DNA from: a virus
Length of the DNA: 64,000 nt
Strand: one strand, 5' to 3'
IMG/VR virus record: IMGVR_UViG_3300020439_000005
Location: 16,698 to 80,697 of that record
In this document: positions 2,076-64,000 of the stretch, one piece after another
Layout: each line of letters begins with the position of its first letter
Position numbering within the stretch: the stretch's first letter is position 1
Position numbers and translations under genes: made by a program
Notes under the pieces: model-generated
Seen by the model: only the letters and a program-made list of their open reading frames with translations
What the model was told of the DNA's origin: nothing
Database searches by the model: none

Positions 2076-2348
2076 GTGAGAGTTCTCAAGCCGGAGAAGG
2101 GATATTGCTTAGTTAGACGATGGGTACCCGAACAGACTACTACATCGGGTGTGATAATACAGGATGACGCCGCCTCATACGGCTTCGGTGTTATTGATGC
2201 AATTAACCCCGATGGAGGCCGAGAATACGACGTAGGCACCATTGTTTTGATAGCAAGTGATAAAGGAACTCCCGTTCAATGGAACGGTAATGTATGTCTC
2301 ATGGTTAAGATATACGACATAATAGGAACCGTGGAGGAATCAGAATGA
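2076..2348 (+). CDS. groES: GroES co-chaperonin
   Basis: A 90-aa protein of normal GroES size. The N-terminus runs from RVLKPEKGYCLVRR, the usual first beta strand, into a TTTSGVIIQD segment that matches the mobile loop preceding GGIVLP in bacterial GroES. It should form the lid of the GroEL chamber encoded next door. The frame is open upstream to a TTG at 2034, but GTG 2076 fits the family's usual N-terminus and lies about 30 nt after a class B box. The stop overlaps the groEL start (ATGA), so the two genes are translationally coupled. Confidence 0.85.
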   Translation: MRVLKPEKGYCLVRRWVPEQTTTSGVIIQDDAASYGFGVIDAINPDGGREYDVGTIVLIASDKGTPVQWNGNVCLMVKIYDIIGTVEESE

Positions 2349-3919
2349 AGCGTTCGATATTTGGAGAAGAAGCAAGAGAAGCATTGATGCGAGGAATAGA
2401 CGAAGTCGCTAACTCAGTAAAACCAACACTAGGACCTGCGGCTCGTACTGTTATACTAGAGAGGCAGTATGGTTCTCCTATCGTCATCAACGACGGTGTG
2501 ACTATTGCCAAGGACATAGATATGAAAGAGGACCCGTATGCTAATCTCGGTGTTCGCTTGATTCAAGAAGCCGCAAGCAAGGCTCAAGATAACGCAGGTG
2601 ATGGTACTACTACTGCGTCGATACTAACTCAGTCTCTATGTACGAAGGGGTTAGCCGAGATGAAGACAGGTAGGAATCCAATCCATATCAAAAAGGGATT
2701 CGATAAGGCGGTCGAAATTGCAGTAAAGGCGATTGAAGACGCATCTCAAGATGTCGACGACGAATCTTTGGTACACGTTGCTACTATCGCCGCCAACAAT
2801 GATGAGATGATTGGTGGTTTGATTGCCGAGGCTTTCGGCAAGGTCGGTCGAGATGGAATCGTCTCGATTGAAGAATCGAACGGTCTCGATACGACGCTCG
2901 AAGTTGTAGATGGTTTGGAGTTTACTAAGGGTCTCCTTAGCCCACACTTCCTCACCGATGAGGAAAAACAAATCTCGATTTTGAAGAATCCGTTGATTTT
3001 GATTACAGATGAACACATCAAACACGCTCAAGAGATTGTTGATGTTCTGAATTATTCTGCTGAGATGAAAAGACCATTACTCATCGTAGCGGCTAAACTC
3101 GAAGGAGAAGCACTTGCTACACTCGCTTTGAATGCCACACGTGGCGTCCTTGAAGTCGCCGCAGTTGAGGCTCCTTCCTTTGGTAATTCACGTGAAGAAA
3201 TCCTCACCGATATTGCTACGGTCGTTGGTGCAGTTCCTATTTTTGCTAGCAAGGGAATGTCGACACAACGGAACGGCATAGAGTCGCTAGGTCGTGCTAG
3301 TACGGTCAAATGCTCCATGAAGCGAACTACAATAGTCGGTGGAGCAGGTGTTGATTCTGATATTAAGAAAAGACAGGAGGCTTTGATTGCTCAGTCGAAA
3401 GAGGCTGAGACTGATTGGGAAGCCGAGGCTCTGCGAGCAAGAGCGGGCAAGATTTCCGGTGGAGTAGCGGTACTACATATCGGTGGTAAAACAGAAGCCG
3501 AGATGAGGGAGCGTGTGGCACGTGTCGACGATTCTCTGAATGCTACTAGAGCGGCCCTGCAAGAGGGAATAGTGCCGGGTGGTTCTATCATGTACCTACG
3601 TGCTAGGGATGAGATTCTTGATGCCTCAGATGATGCCGAAGGGGACGTTTGGTTGGGTATGATGATGGTTCACGATGCCTTGAGCGAACCGTTCCATCAG
3701 TTATGCTACAATGCAGGTGTCGACGGCTCAGAGGCTTTGGATAAGGTCGTCGAGATGAACGACCCTACATACGGTCTGAATGCTAAGACGCTAGAGTACG
3801 GAGACCTGCTAGAACAGGGAGTCATAGACCCTGCGAAGGTCGTCAAGAACTCACTAGAGACTGCGGCGTCAATAGCGGGTCTCGTATTGACCACCGAAGT
3901 TCTAGTCGCTGAGGACTAG
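2345..3919 (+). CDS. groEL: GroEL-type (group I) chaperonin
   Basis: A 524-aa ATP-dependent protein-folding chaperonin. Family signatures appear in order: VKPTLGPAART near residue 26, NDGVTIAKDI near 50, GDGTTTASIL near 84 (ATP site), KRTTIVGGAG in the middle, VPGGSIMYLRA near 410 and a normal C-terminal equatorial domain. It lacks the GGM-rich tail of bacterial GroEL. The sequence is clearly group I, not the thermosome type typical of archaea. Together with GroES it is one of the few rightward units in the structural half, and it probably folds capsid or other viral proteins. The 3' end overlaps the convergent gene at 3902-4327 by 18 bp. Confidence 0.95.
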   Translation: MKRSIFGEEAREALMRGIDEVANSVKPTLGPAARTVILERQYGSPIVINDGVTIAKDIDMKEDPYANLGVRLIQEAASKAQDNAGDGTTTASILTQSLCTKGLAEMKTGRNPIHIKKGFDKAVEIAVKAIEDASQDVDDESLVHVATIAANNDEMIGGLIAEAFGKVGRDGIVSIEESNGLDTTLEVVDGLEFTKGLLSPHFLTDEEKQISILKNPLILITDEHIKHAQEIVDVLNYSAEMKRPLLIVAAKLEGEALATLALNATRGVLEVAAVEAPSFGNSREEILTDIATVVGAVPIFASKGMSTQRNGIESLGRASTVKCSMKRTTIVGGAGVDSDIKKRQEALIAQSKEAETDWEAEALRARAGKISGGVAVLHIGGKTEAEMRERVARVDDSLNATRAALQEGIVPGGSIMYLRARDEILDASDDAEGDVWLGMMMVHDALSEPFHQLCYNAGVDGSEALDKVVEMNDPTYGLNAKTLEYGDLLEQGVIDPAKVVKNSLETAASIAGLVLTTEVLVAED

Positions 3920-52094: not shown

Positions 52095-52531
52095 GGACAT
52101 CAAACAACACGCGACAACCACGACTGACCGGCCACGCCATCGAGCGAGCCGGAATCCGGCTTAAGCCGGATGAATTGAAGCGGGCTTTAGCCGTCGCCTC
52201 AATCGAATGGGCTAAACTAGAAGCCCGAGGACATCGAGCCGGAGCAATCGTCTCACTTGACTTGAAGGGCATCCGTAGAACCGACAACTCCGGGTATGAG
52301 TCTAATGGCGACATGGTCGTCCTCATCATCGTTAACGGTTCAATCGTGACCGCATACCTTCGCCGCTCATCACAACCACTTGACGCTAATTGGCGAGCCG
52401 GTATCAACCGCCGACATAATGCAACCATCTCAAAGAAAGGCGTCGTATGGGGTCGAGGTACTGAGACCATCAAGACCCTCAATCAAAAGGCATGTGCTAA
52501 GGCTTCAAAGTACAACAAGAGGAGGTATTGA
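52085..52531 (+). CDS. Hypothetical protein, RelE/DUF4258-like
   Basis: A 148-aa protein. The N-terminal RLTGHAIERAGIRLKPDELK and central strand VVLIIVNGSIVTAYLRR resemble the BECR/DUF4258 toxin-like fold; the C-terminus is basic. The match is by eye and weak. It is the first gene of a three-gene rightward operon, with an inverted repeat over its start codon, an arrangement often seen in autoregulated genes. Confidence 0.65.
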   Translation: MTYGTSNNTRQPRLTGHAIERAGIRLKPDELKRALAVASIEWAKLEARGHRAGAIVSLDLKGIRRTDNSGYESNGDMVVLIIVNGSIVTAYLRRSSQPLDANWRAGINRRHNATISKKGVVWGRGTETIKTLNQKACAKASKYNKRRY

Positions 52532-52532
52532 A

Positions 52533-53060
52533 TTGAAAGGCACTTTCACTTTCACCATGGGCCTCCCTGCCGCCGGTAAATCGTCGGTTATCAAGGACGG
52601 ACGGGCAAAGGTAGACGGAGCGGTTCTCTTAGACTGTGACTCATTCAAAGAGGCTCATCCCGACTATGACCCTCATAATCCTCAAGCCCTTCATTCATGG
52701 TCGAAGGCTAAGGTCAAGGAGGCATTCAATGAGGCACTAGAGACCGGCGGTCAATTCGTTTACGACACAACCGGAACCAATGCGCCGAGAATGCTTAACG
52801 AAATGAACCGAGCAAAGGAGGCAGGGTTCAACGTCCGTCTAGTATTCGTCAAGGTCGACCTAGTGACTTCTATCGGACGCAATCACGACGCCTCAAGGGG
52901 TCGGGTTGTGCCTTTGCCGGTCATCATTGAGAAGGCCGACAAAGTGAACCGAGTATTCGACGAAATCCACCACGTCGCCCACGAAGTAGTAATTATCGAC
53001 AACTCAAGAGACAACACCTTGAACACACCATCGGCATACATGGAGGCTTTCACCCTATGA
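52533..53060 (+). CDS. P-loop kinase (zeta toxin/polynucleotide kinase-like)
   Basis: 175 aa. Walker A is TMGLPAAGKSS at residues 9-19, followed by LLDCDSFKEAHPDYDPH (substrate Asp), FVYDTTGTN near 78, then RNHDASRGRVVPLPVI (lid Arg). The order matches zeta-toxin-like or polynucleotide kinases. Start is TTG 52533, chosen for the AGGAGGT site 6 nt before it and because it follows the previous stop at once. The substrate is unknown. Confidence 0.8.
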   Translation: MKGTFTFTMGLPAAGKSSVIKDGRAKVDGAVLLDCDSFKEAHPDYDPHNPQALHSWSKAKVKEAFNEALETGGQFVYDTTGTNAPRMLNEMNRAKEAGFNVRLVFVKVDLVTSIGRNHDASRGRVVPLPVIIEKADKVNRVFDEIHHVAHEVVIIDNSRDNTLNTPSAYMEAFTL

Positions 53061-53270: not shown

Positions 53271-53350
53271 TATCGAGCAACTATCGAGTAAATGTGTGCC
53301 CCGCTCGAATACTATCGAGTAAATGTGCAGTCGGCTCGAACACTAATGGC
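53271..53350. repeat. TATCGAG direct repeats, left of the island
   Basis: Two 31-bp direct repeats begin at 53282 and 53313 (TATCGAGTAAATGTG, 6 variable bases, GCTCGAA, 1 variable base, AC), preceded by a partial unit TATCGAGCAA at 53271. The unit core recurs at 57.65-57.74 kb. Confidence 0.85.
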
Positions 53351-53962: not shown

Positions 53963-54385
53963 TCAGTATGTACTAGGATGCCTCCATTGTGCCCTGCGCT
54001 CGTCCTCTAAGCGGTCAGCCTCGCCGAAGGCTCTAACCTTCGCAAGCATTTCCGTACGTGCCTCATTAGAGACGCAGTTAACCCCGAAAACCGGAGTGTC
54101 CCTGTCGTCAGCGTGAGCGTCAGCAAGTCGGCAAGGCTCGCAGATTCTAACTGTAATATTCTTGAAGACGTTGTGCTGAGGCATTACTTCTCGGATGAGG
54201 GCTTCAACTTCTTCGGAAGTCGATGGCTTGTTTGATGTTGCGCCATAGCGAGCCATTTCATACGAAGTGCGGGCGGTGGTCTCAATTGAGAATTGATGTA
54301 GCATTAAGTCGATGTTGAGCATATTTGCAGGTGCGTCCGGTGCGTCGCAGTAGTCGCAGGGGTAGGTGGTCGGGAGTTGCGTCAT
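53963..54385 (-). CDS. Island protein with paired CxxC
   Basis: A 140-aa protein. CDYC near residue 10 and CEPC near 85 form a possible zinc site, and the C-terminus is charged helix (RLEDERRAQWRH). It is a single-gene unit with a TTTAATAGG box about 29 nt upstream and a divergent rightward promoter element beyond. Function unknown; proximity to ArdC suggests a counter-defence role. Confidence 0.7.
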   Translation of the reverse strand: MTQLPTTYPCDYCDAPDAPANMLNIDLMLHQFSIETTARTSYEMARYGATSNKPSTSEEVEALIREVMPQHNVFKNITVRICEPCRLADAHADDRDTPVFGVNCVSNEARTEMLAKVRAFGEADRLEDERRAQWRHPSTY

Positions 54386-54455
54386 GGTTGGTCGTAGGCG
54401 TTCCCCCTATTAAAGATTCTGATAGGTTCGGTTTCACAAAACGGAAACACCCTAA
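54386..54455. promoter_or_regulatory. Divergent promoter region, cassette 1
   Basis: On the minus strand it holds the sequence CTATCAGAATCTTTAATAGG for the gene at 54385. A nearly identical stretch (CTATCAGAATGTTTATATCC) occurs near 57.5 kb. A CACAAAAC also occurs here on the plus strand, but not at class A spacing. Confidence 0.5.
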
Positions 54456-54497
54456 AAGCGAAAGATTATATACCCCCATCCCTTAGCATCACGTGTC
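54456..54497 (+). promoter_or_regulatory. Rightward BRE/TATA element, copy 1
   Basis: AGCGAAAGATTATATACCCC, then CATCCCTTAG and CACGTGTCGCT. GCGAAAG fits an archaeal BRE and ATTATATA a TATA box. Four related copies follow at 55.1, 56.3, 57.4 and 57.6 kb. Confidence 0.6.
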
Positions 54498-54524
54498 GCT
54501 GGCCTCGGCGAGCCGACCTCGGAC

Positions 54525-54570
54525 AAAAAAATGGTCGGACGCCCGTTGACTCGTCAGCCAACGGACGCCC
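54525..54570 (-). terminator. Leftward terminator, hairpin with T7
   Basis: On the minus strand GGGCGTCCGTTG pairs fully (with G-U pairs) with CAACGGGCGTCC, followed by GACCA and TTTTTTT. Confidence 0.65.
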
Positions 54571-54656
54571 ATTTTATCCCCTACTATTTTCACTCCCATG
54601 GGGAGCGGACGCTCTTAACGTCGGGTTTTCAAGGATAGTTGGAAAGTCAAATGGTC

Positions 54657-54690
54657 GGACGCCCGTCAGCCCGAAGGCCAACGGACGCCC
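54657..54690 (-). terminator. Leftward hairpin with UUCG loop
   Basis: On the minus strand a 15-bp stem, including G-U pairs, is closed by C(UUCG)G. It repeats the hairpin at 54537-54570 and starts 14 nt after the stop at 54705. The G-U pairs are possible only in leftward RNA. Confidence 0.6.
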
Positions 54691-54704
54691 TTACGTCCAC
54701 CTAC

Positions 54705-55064
54705 TCAGTAGGTGTCGCGGCTTTGGGTCACACCGGTTGTTCCGGTGAAGTCGACCTCAAGTTCGCCGTAGCATGATTGTGCCCTAAAGCGACTGAACAA
54801 CGAGTCAAAGACTACACCGCTCAAGTCGTCTGCCCTAGTCCAAAAACCAACAGGGGTATTGTTTTGGGTGGACGAACCACGTACGGTTGATACGCCATAG
54901 TCAGCAGGGTCAACGTCGACCCTCACTGCCATGCACCCGCAACCCTGCCCGGTGCGGGAGAATGCGTCGGTGAGGGCTTGGTGCCCCACCGCCATAAGTG
55001 CGTTCACGTACGCACTCTCGTTGTCGGTCGTTGCTCTTAGTCTCGGGTTTCCATAGTCGGTCAT
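54705..55064 (-). CDS. Island hypothetical protein
   Basis: 119 aa from the ATG at 55064, chosen for GGAGG about 9 nt upstream and a CTTTATACC box about 43 nt upstream. No domain recognised; GCGCMAVRVDVDPADYG lies mid-protein. Single-gene unit with its own terminator. A candidate counter-defence gene by location. Confidence 0.7.
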   Translation of the reverse strand: MTDYGNPRLRATTDNESAYVNALMAVGHQALTDAFSRTGQGCGCMAVRVDVDPADYGVSTVRGSSTQNNTPVGFWTRADDLSGVVFDSLFSRFRAQSCYGELEVDFTGTTGVTQSRDTY

Positions 55065-55133
55065 ATTGGTTGCCTCCAAACTGTCCGAGGGGGGTTGTAG
55101 GTATAAAGGTATGGTTCACAAAGGTTGAGAGTA

Positions 55134-55182
55134 ATATAACCAAAAGATTATATACCTACATCCCTTCGTAGACACGTGCCGC
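55134..55182 (+). promoter_or_regulatory. Rightward BRE/TATA element, copy 2
   Basis: ATATAACCAAAAGATTATATACC, read in two parts, then CATCCCTTCGTAGA and CACGTGCCGCT. It faces the 3' end of the ArdC-like gene. Confidence 0.6.
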
Positions 55183-55208
55183 TACCGCCCCCGCCGAGGG
55201 TCGGCGAT

Positions 55209-55244
55209 AAAAAAGGGGGACTGAGAGCCTAAGCCCTCAGCCCC
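55209..55244 (-). terminator. Leftward terminator of ardC-like gene
   Basis: On the minus strand GGGGCTGAG pairs with CTCAG and CCCC (one bulged base), followed by TTTTTT. It starts 8 nt after the gene's stop. Confidence 0.7.
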
Positions 55245-55251
55245 GTTGCGT

Positions 55252-56244
55252 TCAATGCTCCGTGGTGATACCCTCAAGGGCTTCCATGGTGGCACCGTCC
55301 GTAGTGGTCGCTCCGTCGTGGCTCTCAGGGCGTCCCCCTATAACCCATGAGGCCGCCGCACTAGAGCGAGTCAAGGCTCTGAGAATGGCCTTTCTAGCCT
55401 CCTTCTGAGGCGTCCTAGAAGCCCACCCTGCTAAGTAAGCCGCCGAGCGGTTCATGTTGCTCTCGTAGCCTAGAACCCCACATGCGGCCACGCTAGACAA
55501 TTCAGCGATTAACTCCTCAACTGCATAGTCACCGTCTCGGGCTGAGTAGCCTCCTAGAGGTCTCGCTAGCCTTAGAGGGTGGCCGGTTGCATGACTCGCT
55601 TCGTGAAGTAGTACGCATGCGTAGTCGTCGATTGATTCCCATGCGGTCATGGGTGGCATGGTGATTGTGTCGGTTGAAGGCGTGTAGTACGCCGCCATGC
55701 CGTCAACGATTCGGACGCCGTCAAGGTTGGACTGTACGACGCTCCATAGGTCGGATGCGTCGACCGGGTCTCTCTCCTCAACTCCGAGTCTGTCTAAAGC
55801 CCACTTTGCCGGAATGTTTGTGTTCTCGATATTCCAAACCGGATAACTTCGGAACCCTTGAGCGAAGCGGTCGGGTGCTTCGTCGTCGTCCTTCTCAGTT
55901 TTCTTGATTTTGTACATGATAGGACGGAAATGATAGGTGTCCGCTTTGCCGCCCTTCTTGAAGGCGAATAGGTCTTCGCCGTCGTTCTCGTTATTGTACT
56001 GCTCCATGAGTTTCTTAGCCTGTCCGCTAGCGACAAACAGAGGACTTGAGTATTCTCCTCTCTGCATGGCTAGGATTGACGCCCAAACATTGAGTCCGCT
56101 AAATGCGTTCCCGGTGTGGGCGTTGGTGGGTGTAAACAAGCCGTTCCATGGCTTGACCCATTCCGGCATATTTCCGCTTTGGATAATGCTCAGAACCTCG
56201 TCTGCAATTTCGTTCATTTGGTCAGTTGTTTTTGTGTGCTTCAC
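55252..56244 (-). CDS. ArdC-like antirestriction protein
   Basis: A 330-aa protein. The N-terminal ArdC/DUF1738 domain shows EWVKPWNGLFTPTN near residue 28, SGLNVWASIL near 50 and FVASGQAKKL near 72. The C-terminal zincin-like domain has CVLLHEASHATGH near 213 and YAVEELIAEL near 240. ArdC proteins bind single-stranded DNA and block restriction of incoming DNA. Start is GTG with GGAGGAG before it and a CCTTTAAGTACC box about 50 nt upstream. Single gene with its own terminator. Confidence 0.85.
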   Translation of the reverse strand: MKHTKTTDQMNEIADEVLSIIQSGNMPEWVKPWNGLFTPTNAHTGNAFSGLNVWASILAMQRGEYSSPLFVASGQAKKLMEQYNNENDGEDLFAFKKGGKADTYHFRPIMYKIKKTEKDDDEAPDRFAQGFRSYPVWNIENTNIPAKWALDRLGVEERDPVDASDLWSVVQSNLDGVRIVDGMAAYYTPSTDTITMPPMTAWESIDDYACVLLHEASHATGHPLRLARPLGGYSARDGDYAVEELIAELSSVAACGVLGYESNMNRSAAYLAGWASRTPQKEARKAILRALTRSSAAASWVIGGRPESHDGATTTDGATMEALEGITTEH

Positions 56245-56320
56245 GTTGTCTCCTCCTTGAATACATACTGAGCGAAGGGGCTTAGGTACTTAAAGGGTCG
56301 CATGCTCAAAGTCTCAAAGT

Positions 56321-56350
56321 CATATAAGCGAAAGACTATATACCTCCTGT
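56321..56350 (+). promoter_or_regulatory. Rightward BRE/TATA element, copy 3
   Basis: CATATAAGCGAAAGACTATATACC, read in two parts; it lacks the CACGTG box of the other copies. It faces the 3' end of the gene at 56513-57034. Confidence 0.55.
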
Positions 56351-56395
56351 GGTACGTTGAGTATGATTAGGCGTCGCCGATGTGGGGTCGGGATG

Positions 56396-56488
56396 AAAAA
56401 AATCGGCTGAATGTGTGGAGGGTCGGAGACCAACCCGACCCCCCGATGGAGGCCACACCGGAAGTCACCCGAAGGCGTCCCGGTGTGG
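56396..56488 (-). terminator. Double hairpin terminator with T7
   Basis: On the minus strand CCACACCG pairs with CGGTGTGG (56453-56488, inner UUCG loop), then GGGTCGG with CCGACCC (56420-56441), then TTTTTTT at 56396-56402. It begins 24 nt after the stop at 56513. Confidence 0.65.
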
Positions 56489-56512
56489 TTTACGATAGTC
56501 TGAATGCCCGAC

Positions 56513-57034
56513 TCAGTCGAAGCGGACGGGCGCGGAGACCGTCCTCTCTGATACTCGGCGCATGTCTGCGAGAACCTGTTGACCGTTGGCTAGTGCCTCG
56601 GGGCTTAGGTTGATTGCGTCCATGATTGCCTGTCCGACTTCGTCGGATGAAGCACCGTCAACGCCGGATTGAATGGCGTCAAGGACTGCGTCTCGTACTG
56701 TGCCTCTGAACATACCTAGAAGGGATGCTGATAGAAGCATGGCGACCGATGTCGGGAACGCCATAGTTTGACTGCGGGTGTAGGATGCTCCAACGATTAG
56801 GTCGCCCTCAAAGGTCGCCGTGTCGCCGGTAGCGTTGTTAGTGACGGTGAAAGAAGTCTCGGTCACAGAGTCCTCCCCGAATGCCTCTCTAGCCTCTGCG
56901 ATTGTGTCGCCTAGGTTAGAGCGGATTACCGCTCCTAGCCCCGCAAAGGGGAACGCGGTCTCAACAGAGCCGGTCGCTCTGTCGATGACTACGTCAGTCG
57001 TCGTTATGCTTTCTGATTCAATGCTTGAAGTCAT
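56513..57034 (-). CDS. Island hypothetical protein
   Basis: A 173-aa protein with a Ser/Thr-rich N-terminus, beta-rich middle (TSFTVTNNATGDTATFEGDL), one moderately hydrophobic helix (PTSVAMLLSASLLGMF) and an amphipathic helical end. It has GGAGG about 11 nt before ATG and a CCTTTAAGTGTGG box about 44 nt upstream. Function unknown; single-gene unit beside the ArdC-like gene. Confidence 0.7.
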   Translation of the reverse strand: MTSSIESESITTTDVVIDRATGSVETAFPFAGLGAVIRSNLGDTIAEAREAFGEDSVTETSFTVTNNATGDTATFEGDLIVGASYTRSQTMAFPTSVAMLLSASLLGMFRGTVRDAVLDAIQSGVDGASSDEVGQAIMDAINLSPEALANGQQVLADMRRVSERTVSAPVRFD

Positions 57035-57122
57035 TTCTTACTGCCTCCGAACCTACCGAACAAGACTCCACACTTAAAGGTTTGCTTTCACCAAACTCGC
57101 TAGGCATATATCTAGTAGGGGC

Positions 57123-57314
57123 CTAAGCCCCCACATTTTCGTCCTCAACGAGTACGAAGCCCCCCATGTCGATGACGTTTTGACTAACCATTCGTAGGTC
57201 CGGCGTCAGATGGGACACACTCCAATGGTCGGTGTTCATTCTGTAAAGGAGGCCGTCTATTCTAACATAGATAGCCTCTAGGTTTATGTTTAGGTCATGG
57301 TAGTTTGTGGTCAT
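57123..57314 (-). CDS. Small island protein (63 aa)
   Basis: 63 aa from the ATG at 57314 (MTTNYHDLNINLEAI). An acidic, compact alpha/beta protein without Cys. GGAGGG lies 10 nt before ATG and a TTTAAGTG box about 45 nt upstream. The same frame is open to 57581, but that part covers the promoter region. Its end overlaps a small GC hairpin (GGGGC, 4-nt loop, GCCCC). Small acidic proteins are typical of DNA-mimic inhibitors, so it is worth testing. Confidence 0.65.
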   Translation of the reverse strand: MTTNYHDLNINLEAIYVRIDGLLYRMNTDHWSVSHLTPDLRMVSQNVIDMGGFVLVEDENVGA

Positions 57315-57391
57315 TTTTCTATACCCTCCGGTGCAGTCGAACGAAGGCGTACACTTAAACCTTTGCATTCTCAAAGGTTTAGATAGATATA

Positions 57392-57436
57392 GTGTAAAGA
57401 CTATAAACCCCCATCTCATCGTAGACACGTGCCGCT
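57392..57436 (+). promoter_or_regulatory. Rightward BRE/TATA element, copy 4
   Basis: GTAAAGACTATAAACCCC, then CATCTCATCGTAGA and CACGTGCCGCT; closely matches copy 2 downstream of the TATA box. Confidence 0.6.
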
Positions 57437-57540
57437 TACGATGCGAGCCGCCGAGCGGGTCGAGATTTTGACGGCCACCTCCCGCCCCTCCTCCACGGTT
57501 AGCCATTGGATATAAACATTCTGATAGTTTGTGCATCTGA
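57437..57540 (-). other. Empty cassette: promoter without a gene
   Basis: Leftward from copy 5 there is a TATA box (GTTTATATCC) and GGAGG-rich sequence as in other cassettes, but the next conserved element (copy 4) follows within about 100 nt, leaving no room for a gene. Confidence 0.4.
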
Positions 57541-57552
57541 TAGTTTACAATC

Positions 57553-57600
57553 AATATAACCAAAAGACTATAAACCCGCATCTCCTCATAGACACGACTA
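57553..57600 (+). promoter_or_regulatory. Rightward BRE/TATA element, copy 5
   Basis: ATATAACCAAAAGACTATAA, then CCCGCATCTCCTCATAGACACG. Upstream bases are identical to copy 2. A TGCGGGC...GCCCGCA hairpin (57607-57634) followed by AAAAA lies just downstream. Confidence 0.6.
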
Positions 57601-57634
57601 CTACTACTGCGGGCGGGGGTGGGTAGGTGCCCGC

Positions 57635-57755
57635 AAAAATGTGGAAAAAATGTGGAAAGTATCGGCTAAGTATCGAGCAAATGTGGAGAAAATGTACAAA
57701 GTATCGGCTAAGTATCGAGCAAATGAGCAGTTTTAATCGGAAGTATCGACTAAAT
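57635..57755. repeat. TATCGAG direct repeats, right of the island
   Basis: Two 42-bp-spaced copies of GTATCGGCTAAGTATCGAGC followed by AAATG begin at 57659 and 57701, with AAATGTGG units between and a partial TATCGACTAAAT at 57744. The core TATCGAGYAAATG is shared with the repeats at 53.28 kb. Confidence 0.85.

Positions 57756-61305: not shown

Positions 61306-64000
<2,695 letters not shown>

Follow-up and report, generated by a model that had tools for sequence, protein, structure and literature searches.

Five copies of a promoter-like element lie between genes read in the opposite direction in the DNA of a marine virus, and three of them face the intrinsic terminator of the neighboring gene at a nearly constant distance. 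The stretch analyzed, which we call the window, comprises 64 kb (bases 16,698–80,697) of the 80,697-bp IMG/VR virus record IMGVR_UViG_3300020439_000005, which we treat as a tailed virus that infects marine archaea and resembles magroviruses. Each element consists of a transcription factor B recognition element (BRE) followed by a TATA box and, at fixed spacing, by a start box. We view element and terminator together as a composite boundary module in reverse orientation, whose likeliest role, in which we place middling confidence, is the insulation of shuffling gene cassettes, possibly by a roadblock. Because the backward promoter stands at a fixed distance from the terminator of the neighboring gene, the composite points to a reusable part for gene boundaries instead of the family of small RNAs that a first-pass annotation of the region had proposed.

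The motif AAAGAYTATAWACC occurs exactly five times in the window, always on the plus strand (54461, 55143, 56331, 57396, and 57563), whereas dinucleotide shuffles contain 0.01 copies on average and never more than 1; the five-fold repetition between leftward genes noticed in the first-pass annotation is thus real. The rest of the 80,697-bp record has no further copy, and a reversed-pattern control gives 0 matches. The copies align over 60 nucleotides (nt) with 60–70% identity to a reference copy. All five are exact matches to the motif. Element 1 (54461–54499) combines the BRE/TATA block AAAGATTATATACC (54461–54474) with the start box CCCATCCCTTAGCATCACGTGTCGC and scores 32.5 bits in nhmmer; element 2 (55143–55183, 40.2 bits) has the same block (55143–55156) and the box TACATCCCTTCGTAGACACGTGCCGCT. 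Element 3 (56331–56371) carries AAAGACTATATACC (56331–56344) and another start box, TGTGGTACGTTGAGTATGATTAGG. Elements 4 (57396–57436, 38.2 bits) and 5 (57563–57602) share AAAGACTATAAACC, followed by CCCATCTCATCGTAGACACGTGCCGCT and CGCATCTCCTCATAGACACGACTACTACTACT, respectively; a similar sequence, GACACGTACTACTACTACTGCG, occurs downstream of elements in G010 and G023, two other virus groups. The sequence CATCYC, thought to follow every TATA box, is present in four copies but not at 56331, which carries the different start box CTGTGGTACGTTGAGTATGATTAGG. Similarly, the box GTAGACACGTGCCGCT, listed as frequent, is complete in two copies (55168 and 57421), whereas the elements at 54461 and 57563 have TTAGCATCACGTGTCGCT and CATAGACACGACTACTAC.

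BRE precedes TATA in every copy, the order appropriate for rightward transcription, and no plus-strand open reading frame (ORF) with a recognized homologue begins downstream of the window elements; both points had been made before and hold. Each of elements 1–3 precedes a leftward start codon by 70–90 nt and neighbors the presumed weaker promoter of that gene. As had been described, the promoter-like element, with its host-type BRE and TATA box, points away from the adjacent gene start; what it faces is the 3' end of the leftward gene that comes next. The box occupies the position at which transcripts should begin, judged by the repeats of halovirus HF2, in which the measured start is 26 nt after the start of TATA (PMC8707807), and initiation near the box, as initially suggested, would fit this position. 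A promoter with a start-site motif would be expected to look like this, with the box at the anticipated start and a constant distance between it and TATA. From these features we infer both promoter activity and a start site, and regard the element as a promoter specific to these viruses and served by the transcription machinery of the host.

Terminators facing the elements

GC hairpins had been noted in the path of the presumed rightward transcripts. The hairpins exist, but at 54461, 55143, and 56331 the terminator T-run is on the minus strand; they are therefore intrinsic terminators that end the leftward genes. The terminator facing element 1 (54525–54571, minus strand) belongs to the gene at 54705–55079 and has a 16-bp stem (54536–54571) and a U7 tract (54525–54531); its minus-strand fold reaches –28.3 kcal/mol (z score –5.6), and its A-run begins 64 nt from the element. 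Element 2 faces, at 66 nt, the terminator of an ArdC-like gene (55209–55244, minus strand), which consists of a 12-bp stem (55217–55244) and U6 (55209–55214) and folds with –22.8 kcal/mol (z –3.7). The terminator of the gene at 56513–57034, located 65 nt from element 3 (56396–56442, minus strand; stem 56419–56442, U7 56396–56402), is weaker, with a 16-nt gap between stem and U-tract.

The same register is observed across related viruses. A-runs, that is, opposite-strand U-runs, are found downstream of 46 of 85 elements compared to a background of 17%, and A6+ runs start 63–68 nt from the element in 13 of 35 cases (2.1 expected). Opposite-strand stems directly before or near the U-tract have a mean z of –3.5 (16 modules). 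Viewed from the terminator side, 11 of the 13 strong stem plus T6 sites in G000, G005, G035, G026, and G022 have an opposing element at 64–67 nt. The element-to-U-tract distance of 63–67 nt varies with a standard deviation of only 1.3 nt (12 modules). By comparison, the standard deviation is about 58 nt for the interval between U-tract and stop codon and about 18 nt between element and divergent start codon, the latter an approximate value because these start codons were picked by hand. Terminators of the bacterial GC-stem and U-tract type are present here in a presumed archaeal virus (G000, G005, G035, G026, G022, and G033), and nearly all strong terminators in these records belong to composite modules.

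The intervening sequence lacks comparable constraint. Median identity of the spacer between modules is 0.29, the chance level; on the plus strand the spacer shows no structure above shuffles (mean z +0.11), the wider downstream stretch resembles background, and no Rfam match is found. These results argue against the proposed small-RNA family, and a structured small RNA was rejected as the principal explanation.

A virus-specific element family

Scanning IMG/VR with AAAGAYTATAWACCNNCATC identified 52 loci; the reversed pattern had 0 matches in whole records, and an nhmmer profile search retrieved about 150 copies in magrovirus-like IMG/VR records, near-duplicate records included. In GTDB genomes, a slightly longer exact pattern had two isolated matches, both in non-archaeal metagenome-assembled genomes. 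Apart from these two, the family is confined to viruses, and an origin as a host-derived repeat was rejected. Within the viral genomes, the elements cluster in accessory regions.

The start boxes were also searched on their own. When TATA is omitted from the query, a TATA box is found at a fixed distance upstream of ACGGGGTGGA in 12 of 13 occurrences and of CGTTGAGKATGATT, the start-box type of element 3, in 12 of 12; these TATA boxes include several variants. The core varies (TTATATA, TATATATA, TTTATATA, TTATAAA, and CTATATAA), while the BRE purines are kept, as is the distance to the start box. The same boxes are common to virus groups whose chaperonins match that of the window at 88% down to about 33% identity. 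The start boxes fall into a few interchangeable classes shared among distant viruses. A virus-encoded TFB or TBP matching a special BRE was considered, and none was found in 18 records tested; a TFB is annotated in Aobingvirus (PMC10768690).

Some copies occupy other positions. One copy, found in a sister clade, sits within polB, where it belongs to a 48-nt in-frame stretch that precedes the YQDTDS motif (G002, G007, G009, G011, G015, G016, G022, G028, G029, and G041; for example, L094:8616–8656). Synonymous conservation along the gene is highest at this copy (0.98 versus a mean of 0.49, standard deviation 0.10). Because the records had first been chosen by the motif, an ascertainment that bears on the silent-site signal, the search was repeated with the PolB protein. 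The motif-independent search yielded one extra lineage (L134/L135) with a single change, as well as other clades without the stretch, and, being free of motif bias, it confirms the silent-site signal. The signal is strong enough to constrain the gene of a replicative polymerase at silent sites.

In a subset of records, a reverse-oriented element directly follows the terminase stop codon and overlaps the start of a small transmembrane ORF (L094:19154–19196, L108:5167–5208, and L121:3037–3086); in relatives that lack this element, the small ORF has a different N-terminus. A conserved minus-strand leader peptide (ATGGGGGTATATAATCTTTCG, encoding MGVYNLS) was rejected as a general feature: in several copies the ATG is absent or followed by a stop, and TATA variants alter the residues. 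Such a peptide does exist, but only at the overlap of the terminase-end copy with the small transmembrane ORF. Pairs of elements converge at a distance of about 105–115 nt in G012 (42344/42449), G017 (21770/21877), and G010 (8765/8876), and the start boxes that face one another in these pairs are different or partial.

Proposed insulation of gene cassettes and competing explanations

The boundaries marked by the elements separate leftward accessory genes, all on the minus strand. A 140-residue ORF without a Pfam or PHROG match (53963–54385) has a putative promoter with the TATA-like sequence CTTTAATAG at 54406–54419. The next gene (54705–55079, 124 residues) belongs to cassette family f16, with homologues in G005 and G026, and is preceded by the candidate TATA-like sequence CCTTTATACC (55100–55109). 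The ArdC-like gene (55252–56244, 330 residues, family f23) combines ArdcN and zincin metallopeptidase domains (PF18818 4.8e-26, PF08401 9e-11, phrog_7245 1.5e-36) and is likely an antirestriction gene; its presumed promoter, with CCCTTTAAGT, maps to 56288–56297. The fourth gene (56513–57034, 173 residues, family f14) has 73% identical homologues in G005 and G035. G000, G005, G035, and G026 contain the same gene families but vary in which of them are combined and in what order, and almost every junction carries one opposing element: f10, f14, f23, f16 in G000; f10, f16, a small ORF, f23, f14 in G005; f10, f44, f23, f14 in G035; and f10, f44, f16 in G026. Reordering of cassettes at element-bearing boundaries therefore supports modular exchange there. 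A search with ArdC for further cassettes found only two relatives, both already in the set.

Two other features border this island. Iteron-like direct repeats of TATCGRSYAARTG flank it on the plus strand, with two copies at 53282–53324 and five at 57660–57755, and clusters with similar 11/31/42-nt spacing lie at one island end in G005, G035, and G033; they are possibly a replication or boundary signal. A gene for a Zeta-toxin/AAA_33-like kinase (52380–53060, plus strand; Pfam 1.6e-15) adjoins the leftward cassettes.

Read leftwards, the module in its typical form comprises the terminator of the upstream gene (GC stem plus U6–8), an unrelated spacer, and an opposing start box with TATA and BRE; the putative weaker promoter of the next leftward gene and then its start codon follow. 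An initiation complex assembled on the opposing element would be positioned about 32–35 nt ahead of the U-tract and could stall polymerases that fail to terminate. By textbook footprints, a polymerase elongating at the U-tract would, at 32–35 nt, be close to touching the initiation complex that opposes it. Such stalling would insulate each cassette, a short or antisense rightward RNA would be emitted as well, and the repeats may supply homology for cassette exchange between viruses.

Several observations weigh against insulation by a roadblock. The geometry relies on textbook footprints, not on those of this system. Composites in the window are limited to elements 1–3, with no facing terminator at 57396 and 57563. 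The leftward genes have promoters of their own at the same boundaries, and the element may therefore be no more than an additional one. Alignment ends fall within 60 nt of elements in 20.5% versus 14.3%, an enrichment that is weak and confounded by gene boundaries. Finally, in G010, G023, G012, and G017, elements stand in tandem, converge, or precede a gene in its own orientation; the composite form is therefore not universal but one of several uses.

A possible alternative, which we entertain tentatively, is that the repeat persists chiefly as a patch of homology through which co-infecting viruses exchange accessory genes, as has been proposed for the promoter early stem-loop (PeSL) motifs of T4-like phages. 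Families f16, f23, f14, and f44 and the small ORF are indeed permuted or replaced among the four records at element-bearing junctions, and the accessory regions hold the element clusters. Yet copies within one genome are only 60–78% alike, the enrichment of alignment ends is subject to the confounding noted above, and a homology patch explains neither the conserved TATA-to-box spacing nor the polB copy.

Antisense regulation, in which the promoter exists to make a rightward RNA that pairs with the 3' end of the neighboring leftward mRNA and controls its stability or expression, seems doubtful as the chief function. An opposite-strand 3' end is faced by 48 of 80 context-scored copies and by all window copies, and counter-transcripts are documented for haloviruses HF2 and phiH1 (PMC8707807). 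However, about 40% of the scored copies do not face a 3' end, sequence past the start box is not conserved between modules, the plus-strand RNA lacks structure and Rfam matches as described above, and pairing needs no fixed 63–67 nt spacing to the U-tract. The fixed terminator–promoter register suggests a primary role other than antisense, with antisense RNA as a possible co-function of the boundary module. The antisense, recombination-patch, and insulator readings are not mutually exclusive.

A DNA site for a viral replication, packaging, or recombination protein, with a coincidental TATA-like core, would accommodate the copies inside polB and at the terminase 3' end and the tandem and convergent arrays of some viruses. 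This explanation is unlikely, as the core varies like a TATA box while BRE purines and start-box spacing are kept, and the anatomy matches that of the proven HF2 promoters. Ordinary promoters of unrecognized short or leaderless genes are more improbable still: although GTG in the boxes of the window coincides with the predicted start site or lies close to it (e.g., GTGCCGCTACCG) and some elements in other clades lie 100–120 nt upstream of a co-oriented gene, the resulting frames span 10–30 codons, are unrelated between copies, and in some cases stop at once, the downstream sequence is not conserved, and sequence inspection suggests that co-oriented genes following elements have their own TATA; leaderless mini-ORFs starting from GTG or ATG in the boxes were rejected as unlikely on account of these short, unrelated frames.

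The composite boundary module thus remains our preferred reading. We extend it with considerable reserve to a general proposal for archaeal viruses, namely that a promoter-bound host initiation complex acts as a roadblock at a fixed distance before a terminator and forms a portable insulator of exchangeable genes, with the same promoter placed inside polB in a sister clade. If the register does reflect a roadblock insulator, it would represent a new way to isolate genes in compact viral genomes, and one that makes a geometric prediction. A family-wide promoter with swappable start boxes could help to annotate early and accessory genes and to predict transcription starts in uncultured viruses; magroviruses are abundant viruses of marine archaea.

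Virus context and relation to known systems

The record encodes an RFC small subunit (1.8e-83), a GroEL-type chaperonin that scores above the NCBIfam cut-off, and a family B polymerase (PolB). Among phage records, the best matches to PolB over most of its length come from haloviruses such as HCTV-5. ORFs resembling primase and MCM were recognized by eye only. An archaeal-type replisome (PolB, RFC, and the primase seen by eye) together with a GroEL-type chaperonin is the gene set described for Magrovirales (PMC10768690), and for this reason we treat the record as magrovirus-like, with marine archaea as presumed hosts. The chaperonin gene (2345–3919, plus strand) is of bacterial type I, within a virus that has an archaeal replisome. 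A collagen-like protein of 878 residues, probably a tail fiber, is encoded at 61306–63942 (minus strand); it contains long GPTG repeats and a recurring 14-residue motif. The magrovirus survey PMC10160649 contains no occurrence of 'promoter' or 'TATA', and no transcription signals were found in the magrovirus literature searched. One element compared with phage records gave no good match.

In PeSL, the promoter drives the next gene. PeSLs are promoter–terminator motifs for which a part in gene shuffling has been proposed, as cited in PMC4503421. The modules described here are alike in joining a terminator (stem plus U6–8) and a putative promoter in one intergenic unit, between small accessory genes whose order is shuffled. 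PeSL promoters are bacterial, however, and the window elements oppose leftward genes in all copies instead of driving a next gene.

Among archaeal viruses, SIRV2 and others share an early-gene regulatory sequence that lies upstream of, and co-oriented with, anti-defence genes (PMC11065993). Both have a near-identical core of BRE and TATA that recurs, together with conserved flanks, ahead of accessory genes, and the element also occurs beside an ArdC-like antirestriction gene; in contrast to the SIRV2-type sequence, the element is mostly divergent from the gene. The GTC motif of SIRV1/2 is likewise a virus-specific cis element downstream of TATA, but comprises three nucleotides (PMC5569661), whereas the start boxes here span about 20–25 nt and fall into several classes.

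The closest described counterpart is the intergenic repeat of halovirus HF2 (PMC8707807). HF2 and other haloferacalesviruses carry virus-specific repeats of ~58 bp composed of BRE, TATA, and a conserved start-site motif, in several copies per genome of an archaeal tailed virus and in more than one class. Experiments identified them as strong promoters, and mutating the start-site motif abolishes promoter activity (PMC8707807). Our elements share this anatomy: several intergenic copies specific to a virus group, with BRE, TATA, and start-site motif at fixed spacing. The motif texts differ (the HF2 TATA reads CTTTAAGT), and HF2 repeats drive sense modules, whereas most window-type copies face an intrinsic terminator in fixed register. 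The present family further differs in its modular start boxes, its span of distant viruses, and the copy placed inside a reading frame.

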